Made by a program: the position numbers and the translations under genes
In this document: in pieces, positions 2,140 to 17,745 of the stretch
Position numbering within the stretch: position 1 is the stretch's first letter
Layout: the number at the start of each line of letters is the position of its first letter
Assembly (NCBI GenBank): GCA_902500785.1
Contig: CABVRW010000022.1
Location: 1 to 56,372, forward strand
Direction of reading: 5' to 3'
Origin: an uncultured Nitrospira sp.
GTDB taxonomy: Bacteria; Nitrospirota; Nitrospiria; Nitrospirales; Nitrospiraceae
Length of the DNA: 56,372 bases
Notes under the pieces: generated by a model
Seen by the model: the letters and a program-made list of their open reading frames with translations, nothing else
What the model was told of the DNA's origin: nothing
Databases searched by the model: none

Positions 2140-5043
2140 ATGAGTATCGCGCCATTTCCAGACAACGAACCACAGCGGATCGAGGCCCTCGCACGGTCCG
2201 AATCGATCCAGGCGCGGTGTCAATTTGCGCTCGAGCATGCCATCGACGGGATCGCCATCCTCGACCGAGCCGGGCGCTTCACGTATGTCAATCGAGCGCA
2301 TGCCGCGATCTACGGATATGACCCGGCCGAACTCATTGGAAAATCGTGGAAAGATCTGTACGTCTCCGACTGGGTGACCAAGATTGAAACCGTCTCCTTT
2401 TCCCTTCTCATGCAGCGGGGCCGATGGCACGGGGAAACTATCGGCAAGAAAAAGCTCGGCGACGTCATCTCGACAGAAGTTTCTCTCACGCTCTTCCCTG
2501 TGCAGGATGGGCAAGACGACTGGCTGCTCTGGACCAGCCGCGATCAGACGAAACAGAAAGCGGCGCGCGATGAGATTCTCGACACCCAAGCGAGGCTCCA
2601 GGCCGTACTGGATGCCGCCACCGAAGTCGCCATCATCGCCATGAATCTTGATGGCGTCATCACCGTGTTCAATCGCGGTGCGGAATGGATGCTGGCGTAC
2701 GATGCGCACGAGATGATCGGCACACAGACCCCTCTCATGCTTCACCTCCCGGCTGAAGTGGAGTCTCGGGGACGGGAACTGTCGTCCCAGTTCGGGCGGC
2801 CCATCGAGGGATTCGACATATTGGTGGAAGAGGCGCGGCAAGGCACGCATGAAGAACGGGAATGGACCTATGTCCGAAAGGACGGCCAGCAGATTCCCGT
2901 CACCCTCCTGGTCACCGCCATGCGGGACGCCTTTGGCTGCCCCACCGGCTACCTCGGGATCGCCAAGGATCTGACCGAGACCAAAGAGGCTGAAGCCGCC
3001 CTCCGCACAAGCGAGGAACGGTATCAGGTCGCCGTCAGAGGATCGAGCGACGGCATCTGGGATTGGAACATCCTGACGAATGAGATGTATTACTCACCGC
3101 GATGCAAAGAACTCCTCGGATATGAAGATGACGAAATCGATAATGTGTTCGTCAACCTCTCCGCTCGTCTTCACCCGGACGACGAGCGCGGCGTCCGGAC
3201 AGCGCTGGAGGCCCACCTTACCAACAAGACGCCGTACGACGTCGAGTATCGGTTGCGCGCCCAGTCCGGTCACGACCGCTGGTTTCGTGCGCGAGGGCAG
3301 GCGATGTGGAACGAACAGGGCCGACCTGTCCGTATGGCGGGATCGCTGACCGATATCACCGAGCGCAAGGCCGCCGAGCAGGCACTGTCCGACGCAGCCG
3401 CGGAACTCGCAGGCCGGAATGTGGAACTGCAGCAAGCGCGGGACCATGCCCTGGCCGCGACGAAAGCCAAGAGCGAGTTTCTTGCTTCCATGAGCCACGA
3501 AATTCGGACCCCGATGAACGCGATCATCGGGATGGCCGATCTCCTTCAGGAGACGTCGCTCTCGCAGGTCCAGCAGGAATATGTCACTCGATTCAGCCGT
3601 GCCGCCGAAAGCCTACTGGAGTTGATCAACGACATCCTGGATTTGTCGAAAATCGAAGCCGGGCATCTTGAATTGGAAGCGATCCCCTTCGACCTGCATG
3701 AGCTCGTCGACAGAATCGCTGAGTCGATGGCCGTCCGCGCCTATGCCAAAGGCATCGAATTGATCGCCTTCGTGCACCCGGACGTCCCCGCCACGGTCAT
3801 CGGCGATTCCACCCGCCTGCGCCAGGTGCTCGTCAATCTGGTGGGCAACGCCGTCAAATTTACGGAACGAGGAGAGGTCGTGCTGAGAGTGGAACCCGGC
3901 CGCGATCAGTCGTCGTCCGGGGCCCTTCGCTTCTCGATCTCCGATACCGGCATCGGGATTCCGAGCGACAAGATCGGGACCATCTTTGAGAGCTTCACGC
4001 AGGTCGATTCATCCACCACGCGCAAGTACGGCGGGACCGGTCTCGGCCTGAGCATTTCGAAACGTATCGTAGCGCTATTGGGGGGACGCATCGAGGTCGA
4101 CAGCCTCCTCGGGCAGGGCAGCACATTTTCATTTGTTCTGCGCTTCGTGCCCCCCGCCGTTCAGGAGCCTCTGTCGGCAATCCCCTCGATGAATCTCGAC
4201 GGACGCCGCATTCTCATTGCGGACGGCAACCGCACCAGTCGGACGATCATTCGGGATCACCTCTCCCGCCTGGGCGCGTTGATTGTCGAATCACCCGATG
4301 GCATCGCTGCCTTGACGGCCCTCGATACCGCGCGACAACGGGAGGAACCGATCGACCTGGCGATCTTGGATAGCCACCTCCCCGATCAGCACGGGGTGGA
4401 CTTGGCCAAAGCCATCCGCCGCCGAGCCGACGGCACCGCGCTTCCCTTAGTCATACACACCGCGGAAGTGCGCCGCGCCGCCACCCGTCGGACCGACGAG
4501 TTACACATTGCCGGCTATCTCTACAAACCCATCAGCCGCAAGCGGCTGCTCGCCGCGGTGGGCCTCGCGCTCCAGCACACATCGGCCACGCCCGCAACAC
4601 CGCCGCCAACGCCGGCTCACCCCGAGCAGTCCGCTGATGCTCCGCTGGCCATCCTGCTCGTCGAAGATCTGGAAGACAATCGCGACTTGATTGCCTTGTT
4701 TCTGAAAGCCACGCCCTACCGGTTGGACGTGGCAGAAAACGGCGCCGTCGGAGTGGAAAAATTTCAGACCGGCCCCTACGACCTGGTCTTGATGGATATA
4801 CAGATGCCGGTGATGGATGGCTACCAGGCCACGAGCATCATTCGGGCATGGGAACAGGAACGAGGACGCGAAACCACGCCGATCATCGCCCTGACGGCCA
4901 ATGCGTTCAAAGAAGACATCGAGAAAAGCCAGGCCGCCGGCTTCACGACACATCTGACGAAACCCATCAAAAAAAAGACGCTGTTGGAGGCCATTCTCAC
5001 GCACGCCCGGCCACGCGCCGACGAGACGGTCACCCATCAGTGA
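2140..5043 (+). CDS. PAS-domain hybrid sensor histidine kinase with two receiver domains
   Basis: This is a 967-aa cytosolic hybrid kinase with no membrane segment. The order is PAS (~25-140), PAS (~150-275), PAS with PAC (~290-412), a coiled linker, HisKA (~443-508) with phospho-acceptor His453 in SHEIRTPMN, and HATPase (~555-672) with an N-box ([11 protein letters not shown]), DTGIGIP and GGTGLGLSI. Two receivers follow, REC1 (~687-805, acceptor Asp744) and REC2 (~834-955, acceptor Asp886). REC1 is partly degenerate: IADGN replaces the usual paired acidic residues, while its Asp and the KP motif remain. REC2 looks complete. Family knowledge says phosphate passes His to Asp and then to an Hpt protein, and one is encoded two genes downstream. 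The signal is unknown. The upstream ribosome site is weak. Confidence 0.93.
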
Positions 5044-5106: not shown

Positions 5107-7859
5107 AGAGCTGGGAGCCCGGCGTCATCGCTTCACGGGCATGGTTTCCTCGACAGATCCTGGCGGTGGCAGGTCTGTCGCTCATCGTGGGAGGAATCGT
5201 CCTCTGGTCCGTCTCGTTCACGCTGCCCACCGCAGCGACCGAGGTGGCCAACAAGCTCGACATGCTTTCGCAGGACGACCACAACGATCTCCTCGCGACG
5301 CTCTTCCTCATCGGGGTTGCAGGATCGGCCCTCATCGTCACACTGATCGCACTGCTCCTCTGGAGTACCGTAAGCCTCCATCGCGCCCGGCTCCAAACCC
5401 AACGGGACCATCATCGTGCCTGTCGGGCTGAGTCACGATTCGTCACCGTGCTTGATGCCGCCCCGGATGTGTTGATCATAGCCGACGAAGCGGGACACAT
5501 TGTCTACGGCAACCGTATGGTGGAATCGACCTTCGGCTATCGCCCTCAGGAATTGATCGGCCGACCAGTCGAGGTGCTGATGCCGGAGCGATATCGGCAT
5601 CACCATCCCGAGCAGCGGAGCCACTACATGGCCACCCCCTCGACCAGACCCATGGCTGGGCACGCCGACCTGGTCGCCCAACACAAGAATGGACATGAGT
5701 TTCCCGTCTTGATCAGTCTGAGCCACGTAGCGATGGAAGACGGGACATACGTGGTGTCGGCAATCCGCGACATCTCCCAGATCAAGCAGGACCAGGACGA
5801 GCGGGAACGATTGTCTCGTCATATCCGACTATTACTCGATTCCACCGCCGAAGGCTTGTACGGCGTCGATCTCGACGGACGCTGCACTTTTGTGAATCGG
5901 GCCGGGGCGGAACTCTTGGGCTATACACCTGAGGAGTTGTTGGGACAGCCTCTGCATCACCTCATCCACCACTCCCATCCGGATGGCTCCCCCTGCCACG
6001 ATGCGCAGTGCGTGTTGGAGCGGGTCCGCCGGACCGGAGAAGGCTGCCGACTGGACGACGACGGGTTCTGGCGGAAGAACGACTCCGTCTTGTCGGCCGA
6101 AATCGACGCCCGGCCGGTATATGAAAACGGCAGGCTGACAGGAGCCTTCGTTGGCTTCACGGACATCTCCGAACGAAAGCACACGGAACTGGCCCTGGCC
6201 ACGACCGCCGCGATTCTCAAGAAACGCAATACGGAGTTATTGGACACCCGAGATCAAGCCCTGGCCGCAACCAAAGCCAAGAGCGAGTTTCTGGCATCCA
6301 TGAGTCATGAAATTCGGACTCCGATGAATGCGATCATCGGGATGGGAGATCTGCTGAAGGAGACGGTTCTCACCAGCCACCAGCGGAACTTCGTCGATCG
6401 GATTGCCCGAGCGGCCAACGCGCTGCTGGATCTCATCAACGACATCCTGGATCTGTCGAAGATCGAAGCGGGCCATCTGCATCTCGAGGCCATCCCGTTT
6501 GACCTCTCCGAGGTGATTGATGGCACGGCGGAACTGTTGGCGGAACGAGCCCATGCCAAGGGGTTGGAACTGGTGACCCATATCCCGCCGGAGGTGCCGA
6601 TCTGGGTCGAGGGAGATCCCACACGACTGCGGCAGATCCTGATTAACCTCGTCGGCAACGCCATCAAGTTCACCGACCAGGGCGGGGTGACCGTGGACGT
6701 GCGGCTGTCCCTTGAACCCAACGATGCCGCCCATCATCACATCACGGTGACAGACACCGGCATCGGTATCCCGGAGGACAAGCGTCAGGCCATTTTTGAA
6801 AATTTCACCCAGGTGGACTCATCGACCACACGTAAGTATGGAGGAACGGGGTTGGGTCTCGGTATCAGTCGGCGGCTGGTAGAAATGATGGGGGGAACCA
6901 TCTGGGTCGAGAGCAGACTGGGATTCGGCAGCACGTTCCACTTTACGACCCGTCTCCCCGCGCACCAGCCGAGTGAGTCCGATATGAACCGCGCGCTTCT
7001 CCGGACGTCTGCGTTGGCCGGCCGACGCGTGTTGTTGGCGGACGATCATGCGGCCAGCGGCCGGATGATACGGGAACACTTGTCGCGATTCTCGGCCGAG
7101 GTCCATGAAGCGCCCGACGGGGCCACCGCCCTGCAGATGCTTCGGCAGACTGTGGCACAAGGCAAGCGTTTCGACCTGGCGATACTTGACGACCGCATGC
7201 CCGTCTTGAATGGATGTCAGCTCGCCACAATTCTCAATACCGACCCCGAGCTACGGGCGATCCCAACCATCTTGCTCACGTCCGAGACAGGCCTTCCCGA
7301 CGCCCGCCAACCGGATGCCGTCGGATTCCGATCCTGCCTGGTCAAACCGATTCGGCGCGCGGCCCTGCTTCAAGCCGTCCTGCAGGCCCTCTCGTCCAAC
7401 CATCCGGCCGATGTTCCGCTACCAGGGAACCAGCCGGAGGGGTCGAGCCCCGGGAATGTCGGACCCCTGCGCATCCTGCTCGTGGAGGACCTTGAAGACA
7501 ATCGTGACGTGATCGCACTGTTTCTCAAGGATTGTCCGTACACCATTGAGATGGCCGAAGACGGCCTGGACGCTCTGGAAAAGTTCACGACCAGCCGATA
7601 TGACCTGGTCTTGATGGACATTCAGATGCCGCAGATGGACGGTTATGCCGCGACCGCGGCCATTCGCCGATGGGAATCCGACGCGCGTCGCGCACCGACG
7701 CCGATCGTGGCGCTCACGGCGAACGCGTTTCAGGAAGAACTCGACAAGAGCCTGGCTGCTGGCTGCGATGCCCATTTGACCAAACCCATCAAGAAGAAAA
7801 CCTTATTGGAAGCCATTCGCCGCTATGCCGTCACCTCGCCACGAAAGGAGGCAGCCTGA
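5103..7859 (+). CDS. Membrane-anchored PAS hybrid sensor histidine kinase with two receiver domains
   Basis: This 918-aa paralogue of the preceding kinase carries two transmembrane helices (~17-36 and 61-83) in place of one PAS domain. Next come PAS (~112-225), PAS (~237-357), HisKA with His402 (SHEIRTPMN), HATPase (DTGIGIP, GGTGLGLGIS), REC1 (acceptor Asp696, with an intact acidic pair in LLADDH) and REC2 (acceptor Asp839). The kinase core and REC2 are nearly the same as in the upstream kinase, including the [14 protein letters not shown] ending, which points to tandem duplication. The short loop between the two helices (~24 residues) is too small for a typical ligand domain, so sensing is probably by the PAS domains. 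It is the second gene of the operon, and its TGA overlaps the Hpt gene's ATG by one base. Confidence 0.93.
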   Translation: MKSWEPGVIASRAWFPRQILAVAGLSLIVGGIVLWSVSFTLPTAATEVANKLDMLSQDDHNDLLATLFLIGVAGSALIVTLIALLLWSTVSLHRARLQTQRDHHRACRAESRFVTVLDAAPDVLIIADEAGHIVYGNRMVESTFGYRPQELIGRPVEVLMPERYRHHHPEQRSHYMATPSTRPMAGHADLVAQHKNGHEFPVLISLSHVAMEDGTYVVSAIRDISQIKQDQDERERLSRHIRLLLDSTAEGLYGVDLDGRCTFVNRAGAELLGYTPEELLGQPLHHLIHHSHPDGSPCHDAQCVLERVRRTGEGCRLDDDGFWRKNDSVLSAEIDARPVYENGRLTGAFVGFTDISERKHTELALATTAAILKKRNTELLDTRDQALAATKAKSEFLASMSHEIRTPMNAIIGMGDLLKETVLTSHQRNFVDRIARAANALLDLINDILDLSKIEAGHLHLEAIPFDLSEVIDGTAELLAERAHAKGLELVTHIPPEVPIWVEGDPTRLRQILINLVGNAIKFTDQGGVTVDVRLSLEPNDAAHHHITVTDTGIGIPEDKRQAIFENFTQVDSSTTRKYGGTGLGLGISRRLVEMMGGTIWVESRLGFGSTFHFTTRLPAHQPSESDMNRALLRTSALAGRRVLLADDHAASGRMIREHLSRFSAEVHEAPDGATALQMLRQTVAQGKRFDLAILDDRMPVLNGCQLATILNTDPELRAIPTILLTSETGLPDARQPDAVGFRSCLVKPIRRAALLQAVLQALSSNHPADVPLPGNQPEGSSPGNVGPLRILLVEDLEDNRDVIALFLKDCPYTIEMAEDGLDALEKFTTSRYDLVLMDIQMPQMDGYAATAAIRRWESDARRAPTPIVALTANAFQEELDKSLAAGCDAHLTKPIKKKTLLEAIRRYAVTSPRKEAA

Positions 7860-10296: not shown

Positions 10297-12261
10297 CTAT
10301 CTCCATGCCGGTGCGACGTGATTACGAGTGCGGGGCCCGGGCGATGGATGGGTGGCTGCCGACGATTTTGAGCGCGGCGTGAACCGGACGGCGTGCGTAC
10401 CCTGCAGTTCCGGGAACAGCACCACCGACCCCCGTTGCGCGATCCCCTTCGGTGATGGCGCGGATCCGGCGAGTGTCCATCCTTCAGGTACTTCAATCGT
10501 CAACCCGGCCACCGGTGTCGGAACGACCATCGTGACAGATATACTCGTCGGATCGCGCCTCACATCGAGCTCCACCTGATTGCGCGCCGCCCACCAGCGA
10601 CCGAATTCTCCCACCGAACCGAACCACGCATACGGACGCACGCCGTCCACAAACCCCTTCTCGAAGGCGAGCTTGTGATCGAGAATGTTCGGGTGGATGA
10701 GCACGACGACTGAACCGCCGTAGCGGCTGATCTTTCGCGCCACCTCAAGGGCCTGGGGGAGCCGGTCACCCATTTTCGGTAGCTCTTCGTCTTCGATCGT
10801 GACAGGGAATTCGAAGATCTCGACCTCACTCTGCGTCAATCGGTCGTAGGTCAGCTGGTAGGGCAAATGAGTGAGCGAGTTGTTCGCCGTGGCCGTCGAA
10901 CTGTATCGGAACCCCGTCGCCAGGAGCGCTTGCGGAAGACCGAACGGATTGGAGAGCTCGCCGGGCCGGAAGCAGACGATCGCCTGGCCGGAAAAGTGAT
11001 CGATCAAAAACTTGCTGACGCGCAACTCCCCCAGCACGCTTGCATTCAAAGCCGTCATGCGATCTTTGACGAAGGGAGCGTACGACGGATAGGCCTCCCG
11101 TCCAGTGCCCATGGGAAACTGATTGAAGACCTTCGAATGGGCGATCGTGTGACTACCCAACTCCATTCCGAGTTCGGCGAGTCGAGCCAGATACCGCACC
11201 CCTTCGTCGTTGAAAAAGATATCGTCGTTATAGTCGCGGATGTATTTGACCTGGATGAAATAGGTCCCGACCAATCCCTGACTCTTCTCATACTCCGCAT
11301 AGTCGACGGCGTTTTTGATCGACTCGGTGAAATCCACATCGTGCGTGAGCATCACGGAAAGCGACTTCCCGAACGGCACCGTCCCCAGGGTCACCGCCTC
11401 GACTTGCGTCGTCCGATAGATCGATTTGATCAGGCGCAGCCACACATCAAGCGTGGGGTCGAACTGGTTGTCGTAGGTCCGAACGAGTTCCTCTCCGCGA
11501 TTGTTGTATCCTTTCAGGAGCAGAAATCCGAGATCCAATCCGATGGCATAGGCCCGCCCATGCCCATAGAGCGCCTGAGTAATGGCGGCCGTCCCGTCGT
11601 CGAAGCGCGCCAGCGGAGTCGTGCTTTCGGTGTAGCCATAGGTCCCCATCACCTCCATCCCCTTCTCTCGAATGCCGATCCGCAATTGTCGTTCACTCGG
11701 ATCGGTCAAACTCGCCAGCAGGGGATCAGACACCGACAATTGCAGATCATATCGCTCGTGCGAGGCGACCGCGTCACGAAAACCAAAGACCTGATTCAAT
11801 CCGCCGCCCAACACTTGCACCCCGATGAGCGTGCCGCCCGACGTAGGAAAACTCGCCAACGCCTGGAGTTCTTCCGGGGACAACACTTTCCCGGATATCA
11901 TCGGATAAACCAGTACAACCTTGTGCGTCAGGGCTTCACGAACATCGCGGGTAATCCGAAACGGAATACCGATCGACTTCAGTCCATGCGCCAAGCCCAG
12001 CCAGGAGGAGTCCGGATCGGTCAGCAAAATGGCCAAACGACTCTTGGAACCCTGCCCATAGGTCGTCCAGGGCGTCTGCACCTGAGGCGGCACAACCGTC
12101 ACATGACGTGGTCCCGACACTCCGGGGAACCGATAGAAATCCTGTTCGGGGATGTCGGTCGGCTGGAGAGGCCTCTGCCCGAAGAGCATCCAGCCACCGA
12201 TCACAAGAGAGACAAAGAATATGGCAACGCCCGTCAGGCGGACGTATGTGGATCCATGCAT
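10297..12261 (-). CDS. Membrane-anchored polysaccharide deacetylase-like protein
   Basis: The 654-aa protein has one N-terminal helix (~9-28), so the bulk lies outside the cytoplasm. Residues ~70-290 form a Rossmann-like domain of the kind fused to deacetylases. From ~300 comes a NodB-type (CE4) domain: THDVD (306-310) provides the two Asp, HTIAH (371-375) the two metal-binding His, and RPGELSNP a later conserved strand. A beta-rich tail ends the protein. CE4 enzymes remove N-acetyl groups from GlcNAc-type polymers, as PgaB does for poly-GlcNAc. It starts 4 bp after the TPR/porin gene and is the last gene of the minus-strand operon. Enzymatic activity is inferred from the metal ligands. Confidence 0.85.
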   Translation of the reverse strand: MHGSTYVRLTGVAIFFVSLVIGGWMLFGQRPLQPTDIPEQDFYRFPGVSGPRHVTVVPPQVQTPWTTYGQGSKSRLAILLTDPDSSWLGLAHGLKSIGIPFRITRDVREALTHKVVLVYPMISGKVLSPEELQALASFPTSGGTLIGVQVLGGGLNQVFGFRDAVASHERYDLQLSVSDPLLASLTDPSERQLRIGIREKGMEVMGTYGYTESTTPLARFDDGTAAITQALYGHGRAYAIGLDLGFLLLKGYNNRGEELVRTYDNQFDPTLDVWLRLIKSIYRTTQVEAVTLGTVPFGKSLSVMLTHDVDFTESIKNAVDYAEYEKSQGLVGTYFIQVKYIRDYNDDIFFNDEGVRYLARLAELGMELGSHTIAHSKVFNQFPMGTGREAYPSYAPFVKDRMTALNASVLGELRVSKFLIDHFSGQAIVCFRPGELSNPFGLPQALLATGFRYSSTATANNSLTHLPYQLTYDRLTQSEVEIFEFPVTIEDEELPKMGDRLPQALEVARKISRYGGSVVVLIHPNILDHKLAFEKGFVDGVRPYAWFGSVGEFGRWWAARNQVELDVRRDPTSISVTMVVPTPVAGLTIEVPEGWTLAGSAPSPKGIAQRGSVVLFPELQGTHAVRFTPRSKSSAATHPSPGPRTRNHVAPAWR

Positions 12262-12265
12262 GCGG

Positions 12266-14647
12266 TTACCAGTGATAGATCAAATTAAAACTACCCCCCC
12301 GACGGACGTAGAGAAATCCGCGGTCCTCATAGTAGCCCGATACTTCGGCCGAAAATCGTTCGTTGATTGGAAAGGTCACGCCGCCCTGAATGGTGCGGCT
12401 GCCCACCCGGGTAAAGTCCTGAGCCGCCACGATGCGTTCACCCGAGGTGCCGAACGAACCGGAGGCGAAGAACTGCAACCGATCCGTCGGTCGCCAGGTC
12501 AGTTGCGACGCGAGCGTCACAGCCCCCGTGTTCGGGATGAAATAGATCTTCTCGGTCAACCACAGATTGAACGGCAGAAAAATTGTCAATCCCGGCATCA
12601 ACAAATCAATATCGTCCTGCTTGTAATTCAGGCGCCGATAGCCGAACGACACTTCGAACGGGGCCAATGACGCGTGTAGGCCTCCCAGCCCTTGCGCCAC
12701 CTCGCCGACCACCGAGTAGTTAGGGGAGAAATTGGGGTTGATCGTCCCTTGTGCCGCCACATAGCCCCAGGCCCGTTGCCAGAGCGGACTGTACAGCTCG
12801 GCCGAGAAGGGCGTGTCGTGAAAGCCGAACCGACTGATCGGCTCGACCCGCATCACGAAGGTTTGGTTGCCGAAGGGCTTGGCAATCTCAAACAGCAGAT
12901 CGCGCTCATCGGGTTGATTCTTGGTGTAGGAATAGTGCCCATACCCGATCTTGGCATAGTCGCGGTAGGGAATGCGTAGGCCGGTCAAGCCTTGTCCCAC
13001 CGCTGCCCGTGGCGACACCAGCAATTCAGATTGCACGGCGCGAAGTTGCTGTTCAATGGCGGGGTCGTGTGTCTCGGCGAGCAGGGCTTCATACCGCTGC
13101 AGGGCTTCCTGCCGGTTTCCCCGCCAATGCGCCACTTCGGCGAGCCCGCGCCGCGCCTCGATCTGCGTGGGATCCGCCTCCAGGACTTGCGCATAGAGGC
13201 GATGGGCCGCATCAAACTCTTTCTGCCAGGACAGGACCTGCGCGAGCGCCACGCGGATCTCCTGATCCTCAGGATGGCGCGTCAACACGTCTCGATACAG
13301 CGTGGCCGCCTCGGCGTGGGCGCCTTGCCAAGAGAGCACTCGCGCCAAGGCGCTACGAACTTCATCGTTGCCGGGATGTTGCTGCAGCACTTCGCGGTAG
13401 ACCGCTTCCGCTTCGCGATACTGTTTCCCTACTTCGAACGTGGTGGCGCGCTTCATGGCGAGCGTGAGGCTTCGCGTCTCCGCGTCCTGCGTGGAAGCGG
13501 ACGGATCAGGCGCGGCGGCACGAGGCGGTTGCGAATCGGCCAGCAGTTCAGACTTGACAGCGTTCAACTGTGCTTCGATTTCGGGGTCGTGTGTCTCGGC
13601 GAGCAGAGCTTCATACCGCTGCAGGGCTTCCTGCCGGTTTCCCCGCCAATGCGCCACTTCGGCGAGCCCGCGCCGCGCCTCGATCTGCGTGGGATCCGCC
13701 TCCAGGACTTGCGCATAGAGGCGATGGGCCGCATCAAACTCTTTCTGCCAGGACAGGACCTGCGCGAGCGCCACGCGGATCTCCTGATCCTCAGGATGGC
13801 GCGTCAACACGTCTCGATACAGCGTGGCCGCCTCGGCGTGGGCGCCTTGCCAAGACAGAATCCTCGCCAGAGCGCCGCGTAGTTCGTCATTCTCGGGAAA
13901 CTGCTCCAGCCCCTCTCGGTATACAGACACCGCTTCAACAGGCTGACGCATGAGCTCCAATCGGCGGCCCCGTTCCATTGCCGATCTCCCATCGGTCTGC
14001 ACGGGGTCAAGCGTTCGAGCAGACGATGGATCGGGTGGCACCGCACCGGACATTCCGGTGCTCGAAGAGGCAGCCTCGGACTTCAGGGCCTGAAGACGCG
14101 CCGCGAGCTCCGCATCGCCGGTAGCAGTCACAACTGACTCATAATACGGAATCGCCTGTTCCCGATGGCCGCTCCACAAGAAAATATCGCCGATTCCGGT
14201 CAGGGCCTCGGCGTGATTCGGCTCGTCGCGAAGAATGAGGTCATACTCTTTTCGCGCCTCATCGAACTGTTTTTGCCAAGAAAGCACTCGGGCGAGACCC
14301 ACACGCGTATCGTGGTCGAGGGGATGGCGGGTCAATACGTCACGGAAGAGGGCAATGGCGTCGTCCCACCGCCCCTGCCAAGAGAGCAACTTGGCCGTGG
14401 TCGCGCGGACTTCGTCATTGTTCGGCCGTACCGCCAGGTATTGCCGATAGGCGGCGATGGCCTCCTCATACTGCTTCTCTTCCTCCAGGGCCTTCGCTCG
14501 TTCCAGCACATGGCGCGGAGAAGGCTCCTCGGCTTTTGCAGGGATCGTCGCAACGGACGCACAGAGCCAGATGATGGTGAGCAGAGCTCCCAGGAGGAGG
14601 CCCACAACGGGTCCGTGCCGACTACTCCGCATGATGAGATCGTTCAT
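12266..14647 (-). CDS. TPR protein with C-terminal outer-membrane barrel, polysaccharide exporter (PgaA/YaiO-like)
   Basis: I chose the Met at 14647 (793 aa) because AGGA lies upstream and a signal sequence follows (hydrophobic ~15-34, cleavage near AKAEE). The longer frame to 14707 would overlap the upstream gene. Residues ~40-540 are tetratricopeptide modules with a repeated LSWQ..F..A motif. Residues ~555-793 are a beta-rich domain ending in W, as expected for a YaiO-type outer-membrane barrel. The layout equals PgaA/PelB-style exporters: a periplasmic TPR arm guides polymer to a barrel. Two 91-residue blocks (about 265-355 and 439-529) are nearly the same in DNA. The gene is second of three, 34 bp after the glycosidase-like gene. 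Confidence 0.88.
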   Translation of the reverse strand: MNDLIMRSSRHGPVVGLLLGALLTIIWLCASVATIPAKAEEPSPRHVLERAKALEEEKQYEEAIAAYRQYLAVRPNNDEVRATTAKLLSWQGRWDDAIALFRDVLTRHPLDHDTRVGLARVLSWQKQFDEARKEYDLILRDEPNHAEALTGIGDIFLWSGHREQAIPYYESVVTATGDAELAARLQALKSEAASSSTGMSGAVPPDPSSARTLDPVQTDGRSAMERGRRLELMRQPVEAVSVYREGLEQFPENDELRGALARILSWQGAHAEAATLYRDVLTRHPEDQEIRVALAQVLSWQKEFDAAHRLYAQVLEADPTQIEARRGLAEVAHWRGNRQEALQRYEALLAETHDPEIEAQLNAVKSELLADSQPPRAAAPDPSASTQDAETRSLTLAMKRATTFEVGKQYREAEAVYREVLQQHPGNDEVRSALARVLSWQGAHAEAATLYRDVLTRHPEDQEIRVALAQVLSWQKEFDAAHRLYAQVLEADPTQIEARRGLAEVAHWRGNRQEALQRYEALLAETHDPAIEQQLRAVQSELLVSPRAAVGQGLTGLRIPYRDYAKIGYGHYSYTKNQPDERDLLFEIAKPFGNQTFVMRVEPISRFGFHDTPFSAELYSPLWQRAWGYVAAQGTINPNFSPNYSVVGEVAQGLGGLHASLAPFEVSFGYRRLNYKQDDIDLLMPGLTIFLPFNLWLTEKIYFIPNTGAVTLASQLTWRPTDRLQFFASGSFGTSGERIVAAQDFTRVGSRTIQGGVTFPINERFSAEVSGYYEDRGFLYVRRGGSFNLIYHW
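13061..13333 (-). repeat. In-frame direct repeat, copy A (273 bp)
   Basis: Direct comparison with 13583-13855 shows one mismatch by eye over 273 bp (position ~13085, G versus A). The spacing is 522 bp, equal to 174 codons, so both copies are in the same frame of the TPR exporter gene. Flanking TPR sequence diverges sharply at both ends. Confidence 0.92.
13583..13855 (-). repeat. In-frame direct repeat, copy B (273 bp)
   Basis: This is the partner of 13061-13333. It encodes TPR residues ~265-355 of the exporter, while copy A encodes ~439-529. Near-identity at third codon positions means recent duplication or ongoing gene conversion, not protein-level selection. Confidence 0.92.
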
Positions 14648-14681
14648 CCGTGACGACCGTCCTGACCTGTACTCGCGCACC

Positions 14682-16358
14682 CTACTGAGCGAGGGCTCGG
14701 AATCCATCGAGATCGTGAATAATCACCCCTGCAAAACTGTGCTGCTGGGTGGTGTCCAGCATTCTCTTGACGGCCATGGACACTTCGGTCTTCGAACGTC
14801 CGGCAAACGTGAGACTCTCCGGCCTGACGGTAAATCGATGATGGATGCGAAACCACTCCTGAGGTGATGCGGCCTGCGTCTCAGGAATCGGCGTCCATTG
14901 AAGGAGACGGCGATCGTAGTTCAATAGCGCGTCGGCCGGGCCGGGACGCGTAGACCGGCGCAACACCACATGTTGCTCCACCGCCAACGCCGTCGTTTCG
15001 ACCGCCAACCACACCGGCGTTCCGATCACCTCGCCGTACCGAAGGATGTCTTCAGCAATGTCCTGCACCTCGTCGAGATCGGTGCGATAACTCATCACCG
15101 CTACCTCATCGGCCAGGTCCATGACGGCATAGGCCAAGGGTCGGCCGCCGATCGTCGGACTGGTCAACCAAAAGGGCATCACCATCGACAGCCTGGTTCG
15201 GCCACCGATCGCACTCTTCAGCGTCTCGATGGTCTCGACATAGCGACGAAGTTGCGCTTCATCTCCAAGGAACCCCGGCAGGAGATAGGGCTCGATATCG
15301 AGCTGGACGCCGGACAACAGGCCGGGCTCCACAAGCTGAAGCAGCCTCAATATCTTATCGGCCAGAATGTGAGGTTCCTGAATGGCTTCGGGATACCCGT
15401 CCAAAGCTAGGGCCTCGATCCCGCTGCTCTGCACCGTCGTCAAGAGCCGCGCGTAGGCGCGCCAGAGAGCCTCGTCATCGGATTGAGACGGCATCTGGAT
15501 CAGGACCCTCGAACAACCCTGTGTCCGGCAGGTCGCCAACATCGTCTCCGGGTTCTCCACGGCCGCACGATAGTTCCATACCCAGAAACCGATTCCGCCT
15601 TGAGGCCTGCCCCCCGACGGCTCACGGACCAGCTCGATCCGGTCGAAGCTGATCTGCGCATGTTCGGTCTCCGCGGAAACCACCAGCGCCGTCACATACC
15701 GGAGGTCCAAGCGGCGACCAATCTCCTTCAGAGGCACCGTGATGTCGAATGGACCGGTCACCGTCGCCAACGGCACATTGTCTTCCCGCCGATAACCGGC
15801 CAGATCGTCCAGCGCCACCCCCACCTGTCCATCTGCTCGACCACGCAACCGCAACCGCTTGTAGGACATGAGATCCATCGGCAATCCAGCCTGGCGCAGG
15901 GTGATGCGTTGTCCACAGCGCCGCTTCCCCTCGGCGGTCCACTGCAGATCAATGCCCTGATCGCTCTTCGTCGCCTGCCCTTCGCAGGGGCCGAACGGCC
16001 GGGCCTCCCCGAGCGCTGAAGACAGTTCAAGAATGGGCACAAACGGTCGATAAGGAAGAGGGGGAACAGTCTGCGGAGGGCCGCTGAAGGTCACGGTCGG
16101 AGTGGTGCGCTCGCCGACATAGGTAAGTTCGATCTCATAGACCGTGGAAGGAATGGGCCCAGACAGGGGAATATCACCGGCTCGTGAGAGAGGAAGCATG
16201 GCACTCAGTCCACACAGAGTCAGCAGCCAGGTCACCGCCAGAACACCCGGACGCCGGGATCCGTCACGCGCGACCCTCGTCGACAGCCCAGGGATTCTGT
16301 TCGGGCAGACACCGTTGCCGGCGGAGACGCGCTGATCGATGTGGTTAGAGACACTCAT
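14682..16358 (-). CDS. Exported glycosidase-like (TIM-barrel) protein of the polysaccharide cluster
   Basis: The 558-aa protein has an unusually long N-terminus, then a hydrophobic export signal (~40-59, cleavage near SRAGD). Residues ~75-270 form a beta-sandwich-like region resembling carbohydrate-binding folds. The second half shows the strand pattern of a glycosidase barrel: GFWVWNYR, RVLIQMP, EALALDG, GVQLDIEPYL, LSMVMPFWL, EVAVMSY, VWLAVET, GVIIHDLDG. Asp and Glu in LDIEPY lie where GH18-like enzymes hold their acids. The substrate is probably the cluster's polymer. It is first in the minus-strand operon. The start has no clear ribosome site and overlaps the divergent synthase gene by 20 bp, so it may be mis-set. 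Confidence 0.72.
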   Translation of the reverse strand: MSVSNHIDQRVSAGNGVCPNRIPGLSTRVARDGSRRPGVLAVTWLLTLCGLSAMLPLSRAGDIPLSGPIPSTVYEIELTYVGERTTPTVTFSGPPQTVPPLPYRPFVPILELSSALGEARPFGPCEGQATKSDQGIDLQWTAEGKRRCGQRITLRQAGLPMDLMSYKRLRLRGRADGQVGVALDDLAGYRREDNVPLATVTGPFDITVPLKEIGRRLDLRYVTALVVSAETEHAQISFDRIELVREPSGGRPQGGIGFWVWNYRAAVENPETMLATCRTQGCSRVLIQMPSQSDDEALWRAYARLLTTVQSSGIEALALDGYPEAIQEPHILADKILRLLQLVEPGLLSGVQLDIEPYLLPGFLGDEAQLRRYVETIETLKSAIGGRTRLSMVMPFWLTSPTIGGRPLAYAVMDLADEVAVMSYRTDLDEVQDIAEDILRYGEVIGTPVWLAVETTALAVEQHVVLRRSTRPGPADALLNYDRRLLQWTPIPETQAASPQEWFRIHHRFTVRPESLTFAGRSKTEVSMAVKRMLDTTQQHSFAGVIIHDLDGFRALAQ

Positions 16359-17745
16359 TTCAATTTCTGAATGGCTGTTCCTGCTCTACCTTCTCGGCCT
16401 GACCGCCGGATACTTGATGCTGGACGTCATCGCCATTTTCCACCTGCGGCAATACCTGCAGGAGCGTGTGCTCGAAAGCCTGCCGCACAGCTATACGGGC
16501 TTCGAACCGCAAATCAGTATCCTGGTCCCGGCCTATAACGAAGCGACGACGATCGCCAGCTCCATTCGCTCCCTGCTGCAACTCAGCTACTCCGAATACG
16601 AAATCGTCGTAGTGAACGACGGCTCGAAGGACGCCACCATCGATGTCCTTCGGTCGGAATTCAACCTCTTTCCCTTTCCGGAGGCCTACAATACGCAGCT
16701 CCCGACGGCGGAAATCCGGGCGATCTACCATTCCTCCCTTCACGCCAACCTGCGCGTGATCGACAAGGAAAACGGCGGGAAAGCCGACTCCCTGAACGCC
16801 GGGATCAACCTGTCTCTCTATCCCCTGTTCTGCTGTATCGATGCGGATTCGATTCTCCAGCCGGATAGTCTGCGGCGGGCGGTCCAGCCCTTTCTGGACG
16901 ACCATCGCACCGTGGCCAGCGGAGGGACCGTCCGCATTGCCAACGGCTGCCGCGTGGAGAACGGATTTCTGACGAAGATCGGATTGCCCACGAATCTTCT
17001 GGCGCTGTTCCAAATCGTCGAATACCTCCGCGCGTTTCTCTTCGGACGCTTGGGCTGGTCGCCGATGAACGCCATGCTGATTATCTCCGGCGCGTTCGGC
17101 ATCTTCCGCAAAGAAGCCGTGGTCACCGTGGGCGGATATCGATCGGATACGATCGGCGAAGACATGGAGTTGGTCGTCCGCCTGCATCGCCACCTGCGCC
17201 TGAGCGAGAAACCGTACCGCATCACGTTCGTGCCCGACTCCGTCTGTTGGACCGAAGCCCCGGAGGATCTGCGCACGCTGAAAAATCAACGCATTCGCTG
17301 GCAGCGCGGACTGTGCGAGAGTCTGACGAAGAACCTCGATCTTCTCTGGCACCCCAAGGGCGGCACGATCGGATGGCTGGCATTTCCATTTATGGCCATC
17401 TTCGAATGGATCGGACCGGCGATCGAGGTGTTCGGGTACTGTTTTTTGACGCTCGGATTTATACTGGGATTTGTCTCGGTGCAGGCTTGGCTGATCCTGT
17501 TGATCGCCGCCATCGGGCTCGGGGTACTGCTTTCGGTGAGCGCCCTGCTGCTGGAGGAAATGTCATTTCACGTGTATCCCGATCAACGCGACGTGTTCAA
17601 ACTGCTCCTGGCCGCCATCCTGGAGAATTTCGGCTTCCGCCAACTGAATTCTGTGTGGAAATTGATCGGCCTGTATCGCTGGGTGGTCGGAAAGAAAGCC
17701 ACATGGGGAACGATGACGAGAACCGCGTCTTGGCAGACACGATAA
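16339..17745 (+). CDS. Membrane family-2 glycosyltransferase (processive polysaccharide synthase, PgaC-like)
   Basis: The 468-aa protein has a transmembrane helix at ~10-34, a cytosolic GT-A domain and about four further helices from ~345. The catalytic elements of processive GT2 synthases are all present: Asp94 in VVNDGSKD, NGGKADSLNAG (145-155), CIDAD (166-170), GED (273-275, the catalytic base region) and QRIRW (317-321), the QxxRW motif that holds the growing chain. It should polymerise a nucleotide sugar and push the chain across the inner membrane; UDP-GlcNAc is the best guess by similarity to PgaC/IcaA. It is divergent from the export and modification genes. GGAG at 16321-16326 supports the start. 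Confidence 0.9.
   Translation: MWLETLISISEWLFLLYLLGLTAGYLMLDVIAIFHLRQYLQERVLESLPHSYTGFEPQISILVPAYNEATTIASSIRSLLQLSYSEYEIVVVNDGSKDATIDVLRSEFNLFPFPEAYNTQLPTAEIRAIYHSSLHANLRVIDKENGGKADSLNAGINLSLYPLFCCIDADSILQPDSLRRAVQPFLDDHRTVASGGTVRIANGCRVENGFLTKIGLPTNLLALFQIVEYLRAFLFGRLGWSPMNAMLIISGAFGIFRKEAVVTVGGYRSDTIGEDMELVVRLHRHLRLSEKPYRITFVPDSVCWTEAPEDLRTLKNQRIRWQRGLCESLTKNLDLLWHPKGGTIGWLAFPFMAIFEWIGPAIEVFGYCFLTLGFILGFVSVQAWLILLIAAIGLGVLLSVSALLLEEMSFHVYPDQRDVFKLLLAAILENFGFRQLNSVWKLIGLYRWVVGKKATWGTMTRTASWQTR

Follow-up and report, generated by a model that had tools for sequence, protein, structure and literature searches.

Two stretches of a single gene in an uncultured Nitrospira sp. agree at almost every base, silent third positions included, while the sequence on either side of them does not. 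What keeps two parts of one protein arm so alike? The gene lies in a stretch of 56,372 nucleotides (contig CABVRW010000022.1), here called the window, and encodes an open reading frame of 813 residues with a TPR arm and an outer-membrane barrel. Its architecture and the company of its genes make the product a probable polysaccharide (exopolysaccharide) exporter. The two stretches are direct repeats of 274 bp, read on the minus strand and offset by 522 bp (174 codons); 522 is a multiple of 3, and the two copies share one reading frame. Exact runs at this offset cover 13060-13084 (25 bp) and 13086-13333 (248 bp), the sole mismatch being 13085 versus 13607. The original prediction had described a near-perfect, in-frame duplication of 273 bp with one difference and sharp edges. 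Frame, single difference and edges hold, the length is 274 bp, and the word duplication does not survive the trees described below. Over the 156 module codons tested, third positions agree at 90 of 91 inside the block and at 24 of 65 in the rest, a score reached by none of 2000 column permutations. A repeat finder reports the pair as longer, 300 bp at 94% identity (13018-13317 / 13540-13839), because the flanks are distant homologues.

Such repeats are scarce in this kind of DNA. A background scan of 358,906 bases (the window and 29 related loci) for direct repeats of at least 60 bp and at least 88% identity, at most 6 kb apart and with an exact 20-mer, returned nine. Eight are the same block in eight genomes, and the ninth lies between two adjacent histidine kinases of the window. 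A donor elsewhere in the genome was ruled out, as at E 0.001 the DNA of the gene has no match in G000 apart from its own locus.

Profile searches found many TPR matches along the protein. Its C-terminal barrel (aa 587-813) passes the curated cut-offs for the YaiO type, with 77.3 bits against 32 for TIGR04390, and the YaiO-type model PF19413 is also exceeded (39.1 against 23.9). The protein stays below the PgaA family models (TIGR03939, 83.5 against a cut-off of 366.65; PRK10049, 46.8 against 1043) and far under the cut-off of the BcsC model. The true start of the frame may be internal, and a stretch at about aa 26-60 looks by eye like a signal peptide. In an AlphaFold2 model built with 18 sequences, the arm is predicted to form three nine-helix modules (M1, M2, and M3), each of four TPRs plus a cap helix. 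Low-confidence linkers separate them at aa 217-238 and 393-405. The overall pTM is just 0.29, so the relative placement of the modules is not predicted. Searched against solved structures, the barrel profile gave one match, to an unrelated protein (E 0.018). The repeated block, hereafter the core, occupies the central part of M2 and of M3 (Table 1).

Table 1. Positions of the putative exporter gene, its modules, the repeated block, and neighbouring genes in the window.
Feature	Position	Strand	Description
Exporter gene (probable)	12266..14707	minus	813-aa ORF, TPR arm and outer-membrane barrel
Module M1	14054..14518	minus	aa 64-218, nine helices; pLDDT per ten-residue block mostly 75-92
Module M2	13535..13987	minus	aa 241-391, nine helices; block pLDDT 80-94
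Module M3	13016..13495	minus	aa 405-564, nine helices; block pLDDT mostly 74-94, both ends lower
Barrel region	12269..12892	minus	13 strands, aa 606-811, low-confidence model (block pLDDT 34-69)
Homogenised block, M2 copy	13582..13855	minus	aa ~285-375, TPR2 helix B to TPR4 end
Homogenised block, M3 copy	13060..13333	minus	aa ~459-549
248-bp stretch between copies	13334..13581	minus	M2 cap helix, linker (aa ~392-404), M3 N-flank
Neighbour, weakly glycoside-hydrolase-like protein	14682..16358	minus	E 1.1e-7 to PDB 10yv_A, residues 265-459
Neighbour, divergent GT2 glycosyltransferase	16339..17745	plus	top NCBIfam match PgaC/IcaA, under cut-off (152.1 vs 422.3)
Neighbour, possible polysaccharide deacetylase-like protein	10297..12261	minus	16.4 bits, under cut-off 23.1

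To place the block in an evolutionary frame, we compared exporter genes across the genus. At E 1e-60 the gene is found in 21 of 29 genus genomes, the window's own included. Counting TPRs in orthologues, a check proposed at the outset, gave three modules in 18 of these 21 and two modules in the other three (L045, L046, and L047). Eight further two-module genes, L029 and L030 from other genera of the same family and L048-L053 from records titled Nitrospira, complete a set of 29 genes, with 18 three-module and 11 two-module members. L054 and L025 (gene truncated at contig end) were left out of the module analysis by a length filter, and L055 (weak partial match, E 7e-4) and L031 (a second, partial match of G004) by an E 1e-30 filter. 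One gene present in two collections was merged to a single entry. Each species is represented by one genome, and L045 and 22 of 24 related record titles are metagenome bins. The main trees of the N-flank (41 codons) and core (91 codons) contain the 18 three-module genes only; trees that include two-module genes use 5 of the 11.

The repeat could be attributed to a piece of the arm having been duplicated recently, in tandem and in frame, as 274 bp with one mismatch at a whole number of codons would suggest. A fresh 522-bp copy, however, would match across all 522 bp, and the window's M2 and M3 agree at 0.98 of third positions in the core but at only 0.39 and 0.35 in the flanks. In the N-flank tree the 18 M3 copies form one clade against the 18 M2 copies (support 100/100), and pairing the window's M2 with its M3 is rejected (p-AU 6.9e-7). 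The 17 other genes in this tree also have three modules, and their M2-M3 spacing is 519 or 522 bp wherever a repeat is detected. We therefore reject a recent duplication on flank divergence and the N-flank tree; it would require flanks that evolved extraordinarily fast in every species, and we regard it as highly improbable. The core tree has a different shape. Here a common clade of all M3 copies is rejected (p-AU 8.1e-6), and M2 pairs with M3 of the same genome in the window gene (100/98), L032 (100/98), L041 (95/90), and L005 (94/89), and more weakly in L042 (86/88). By these comparisons M2 and M3 are old paralogues, not products of a new duplication, and only their core is homogenised.

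Homogenisation extends beyond the window. Third-position identity between M2 and M3 cores is 0.98 in the window gene, followed by 0.88, 0.85, 0.81, 0.81, 0.79, 0.74, 0.70, 0.68, 0.59, and 0.54 in other genes, and it is 0.33-0.51 in the seven remaining three-module genes. N-flank identity between M2 and M3 is 0.24-0.46 across all 18. A permutation test detected a tract in 10 of the 18 (0 of 2000 permutations each), in overlapping places; L042 was borderline (91 of 2000), and seven showed no tract. The window's cores agree with those of the nearest other three-module gene at 0.53 (M2) and 0.65 (M3) of third positions. A strict rule, which requires the M2 and M3 cores of a genome to resemble each other more at third positions than either resembles another species, leaves 4 of the 18 (the window gene, L032, L005, and L041). 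The remaining tract genes are matched as well or better by close relatives, so their homogenisation may predate the species. Fixed, diverged copies, which the original prediction had named as its counter-case, are seen in 7 of the 17 other three-module genes, beside orthologues with homogenised ones. The seven tract-free genes group together in the barrel tree (91/91), and their lineage seems either to have ceased homogenising or never to have done so. No finished genome with a homogenised core was identified; L038, a single-contig MAG chromosome, has three modules and no tract.

Some details bear on timing and direction. Of 91 third positions, 1 differs between the window's M2 and M3 cores, and 5-6 differ between its cores and that of L045, the closest relative found. 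The last homogenisation in the window thus probably postdates the split from L045. The window's cores are closer to M3 than to M2 of all seven tract-free species, which suggests copying from M3 to M2, although a long M2 branch in the tract-free clade could produce the same pattern. Mean N-flank identities (M1-M2 0.40, M1-M3 0.40, M2-M3 0.49) give no sign that M3 derived from M1. The last module of L050, L052, and L053 has an N-flank nearer M1 (0.51-0.54) than M2 or M3. In the core tree, M3 of L035 groups with the window and L032 (82/73), and M2 of L035 groups with L041 (99/96); separate conversions may have hit its two modules.

Could the likeness be an artefact of assembly, with the window's copies merged or homogenised by the assembler and L045 collapsed? 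Short reads are known to struggle with a repeat such as this one, 274 bp long with one mismatch. The draft that holds the window contig is in 129 contigs, L045 was binned from a metagenome, and an assembler could wipe out a few differences. Assemblers are not expected to merge copies in which half of the silent sites differ, however, and tracts occur in 10 of 18 genes of separate genomes, each with its own sequence and with core third-position identities of 0.59-0.98. Nor is L045 a copy of the window, as 10-11 of 274 core positions differ. These differing tracts from separate assemblies reduce the concern over a mis-assembly raised at the outset, and we consider an artefact improbable. Purifying selection on the DNA or RNA, or on an overlapping antisense frame, might also hold the blocks identical, and an open antisense frame (12992-13882, plus strand) does span the region. 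Yet between species third positions agree at 43-59% in the core and 49-57% in the flanks (window means). We reject selection on silent sites and give it next to no weight, since the likeness is between copies within a genome and the cores are not specially conserved between species. A foreign insert between the copies was also ruled out. The 248-bp middle stretch has a mean identity of 64.8% to 17 orthologues, about the same as the M2 N-flank (66.2%).

The same core marks a deletion. L045 lacks exactly 522 bp relative to the window, so that its module has the start of M2 and the end of M3, with the junction within the block. The two genes are colinear at an offset of -15 before the core and +507 after it. 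Inside the core both offsets fit nearly equally, because the window's two copies are almost identical. What is missing is the 248-bp middle stretch and one core copy. The N-flank of L045 pairs with window M2 (100/99); its C-flank is most similar to window M3 (0.93), and no M2 exceeds 0.62. The six genes closest to the L045 exporter gene share 94-100% identity with their window counterparts, and the two-module frame itself is open across 644 codons. Loss in L045 appears simpler than gain in the window, since the 248 bp absent from L045 are ordinary orthologous sequence. The original prediction that the arm changes length by recombination is borne out here on an evolutionary time scale. Its suggestion of phase variation is not supported, as a loss of 174 codons keeps the frame and switches nothing off.

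The N-flanks of L047 (97/87) and L046 (87/97) also nest among M2 copies, which suggests two further losses, with moderate support compared with the strong support for L045. An M3-like end beside the barrel is no proof of loss by itself in these three genes because it is common to all nine two-module genes compared (of 11). L048 and L049 likewise fall on the M2 side at their start (0.58-0.59 against 0.50-0.51); either these are losses too or the M2 type is older. We did not count losses on the barrel tree, where module number changes five times, because of its weak resolution, with stars on 6 of its 25 inner branches.

We consider it very probable that the M2 and M3 cores evolve in concert, most simply through gene conversion, and that the same homology sometimes yields a module deletion. 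Recombination between close direct repeats can yield either conversion or deletion. In this view a four-TPR module was copied in tandem long ago to give M2 and M3. Through homologous recombination in the middle of the modules, one core would repeatedly overwrite the other, which would keep the cores alike and leave each module its own TPR1 and cap helix; in the window species the latest such event would be young. Occasionally the same homology would resolve as a deletion, removing one core, a cap helix, the linker, and an N-flank (522 bp, in frame) and leaving a complete nine-helix hybrid module in a shorter arm. The compared genes show directly a homogenised core, old flanks, and, in one relative, the deletion product that such recombination would leave, with its junction in the core. 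The proposed molecular route, gene conversion, its dependence on RecA, and any influence on export are inferences. Deletions within the core should be tolerated by the fold, because any in-core exchange rebuilds a whole nine-helix module in frame. Selection may hold the M2 and M3 flanks apart, because distinct N-flanks are kept in all 18 genes.

A variant of this mechanism is homogenisation by repeated expansion and contraction, that is, unequal crossing over, and both may act. Such exchange is expected between repeats like these cores, and the two-module genes in 3 of 21 genus members indicate contraction. One cycle, however, would not equalise the cores and yet keep module-specific flanks on both sides, and the absence of four-module genes among the 29 analysed indirectly favours gene conversion. 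We therefore hold repeated expansion and contraction to be unlikely as the main route. A contingency locus, at which cells of one population carry two- or three-module arms and so tune export, is a somewhat more doubtful proposal. Repeat length and spacing suit recombination, and L045 is a natural relative with two modules. The median deletion rate of 438-bp direct repeats in Deinococcus is 6.5e-4, and a single mismatch lowers it 4.8-fold (PMC4627823, as excerpted); in-frame tolA repeats of E. coli contract at 6.9e-5 (PMC3477136, as excerpted). Against it, the loss is not readily reversible and nothing is switched off. Homogenisation might itself be selected, with matching cores storing ready in-frame deletions that in nature take three beads to two, and species that cease homogenising, such as the seven tract-free ones, becoming locked at three modules. 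We think this joint reading, too, rather unlikely.

With its concerted evolution, most simply by gene conversion, the exporter adds a clean case to a process already known, intragenic concerted evolution. According to the portions of the literature available to us, E. coli TolA is similar in having in-frame repeats in an envelope protein, with contractions supported by RecA and one laboratory deletion equal to the allele of a natural isolate (PMC3477136). TolA differs in carrying a row of short (15-mer) units that vary in number; in the exporter, two 274-bp cores within large TPR modules are equalised, and their number is mostly kept with occasional module loss. E. coli PgaA also has a TPR arm before an outer-membrane barrel, and the arm binds the polymer and the PgaB deacetylase domain (PMC9384988, in part). 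The exporter shares the PgaA setting, with a PgaC-like GT2 and a possible deacetylase nearby, but it falls below the PgaA cut-offs, its barrel fits YaiO models, and its arm is modelled as three separate four-TPR modules. BcsC likewise has TPR clusters linked by hinges, and the available part of its description (PMC5638805) does not mention a homogenised core. The arm length of polysaccharide exporters varies among bacteria, as the same text notes for BcsC.

A survey of protein repeats, in its excerpted form, uses the same criterion, within-protein copies more alike than their orthologue counterparts, and describes concerted evolution as relatively rare (PMC5120217). Unlike that survey, the present comparison follows one bacterial gene down to its tract edges, its silent sites, and a deletion product. 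Literature searches returned no description of homogenised exporter modules among the matches listed (the best 10 of 672 and the best 12 of 44), and the accessible part of PMC5596200 contains nothing on the exporter gene. Within related Nitrospira, a single gene family displays the two parts of the mechanism, homogenised cores and the precise loss of a module. We know of no settled reason for the variation in TPR-arm length, and natural two- and three-module alleles make its importance testable. M2 and M3 cores are unusable as ordinary orthologous characters in trees.

The surroundings of the gene are also shared. The cluster at 10297-17745, with the GT2, glycoside-hydrolase-like, TPR-barrel, and possible deacetylase genes, stays together in many related loci. 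All 23 loci from L032 to L054, which differ in length and in some cases stop near the exporter gene, have at least one of the GT2, glycoside-hydrolase-like, and deacetylase-like neighbours; GT2 is present in 19 of 23. The glycoside-hydrolase-like protein itself has no Pfam family above cut-off. As the TPR-barrel and GT2 proteins reach no PgaA or PgaC cut-off, this is perhaps an undescribed synthase-dependent polysaccharide locus. An exporter match at E 1e-60 is absent from 8 of the 29 genus genomes (G001, G003, G006, G011, G016, G018, G022, and G023), and judged by gene content the locus looks accessory within the genus. Four of these eight are single-contig genomes; seven are also without a GT2 match, and the GT2 match of G016 is only 47%. 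The record of L040 (CAADGJ010000338.1) is titled Nitrosospira and has a Nitrospira-type locus, with a gene the same as that of G002, which belongs to the window's genus; L040 is probably a mislabelled bin.

The repeat between the histidine kinases is direct, 88 bp long and 90.9% identical (3448-3535 / 6258-6345), at the start of the HisKA region of these hybrid kinases. Third positions of the pair agree at 21 of 30 over the 90 bp from 3448 and at 17 of 50 over the 150 bp upstream, and another 30-bp patch, from 3628, agrees at 9 of 10. A conserved motif or a short tract of conversion could each account for this repeat.
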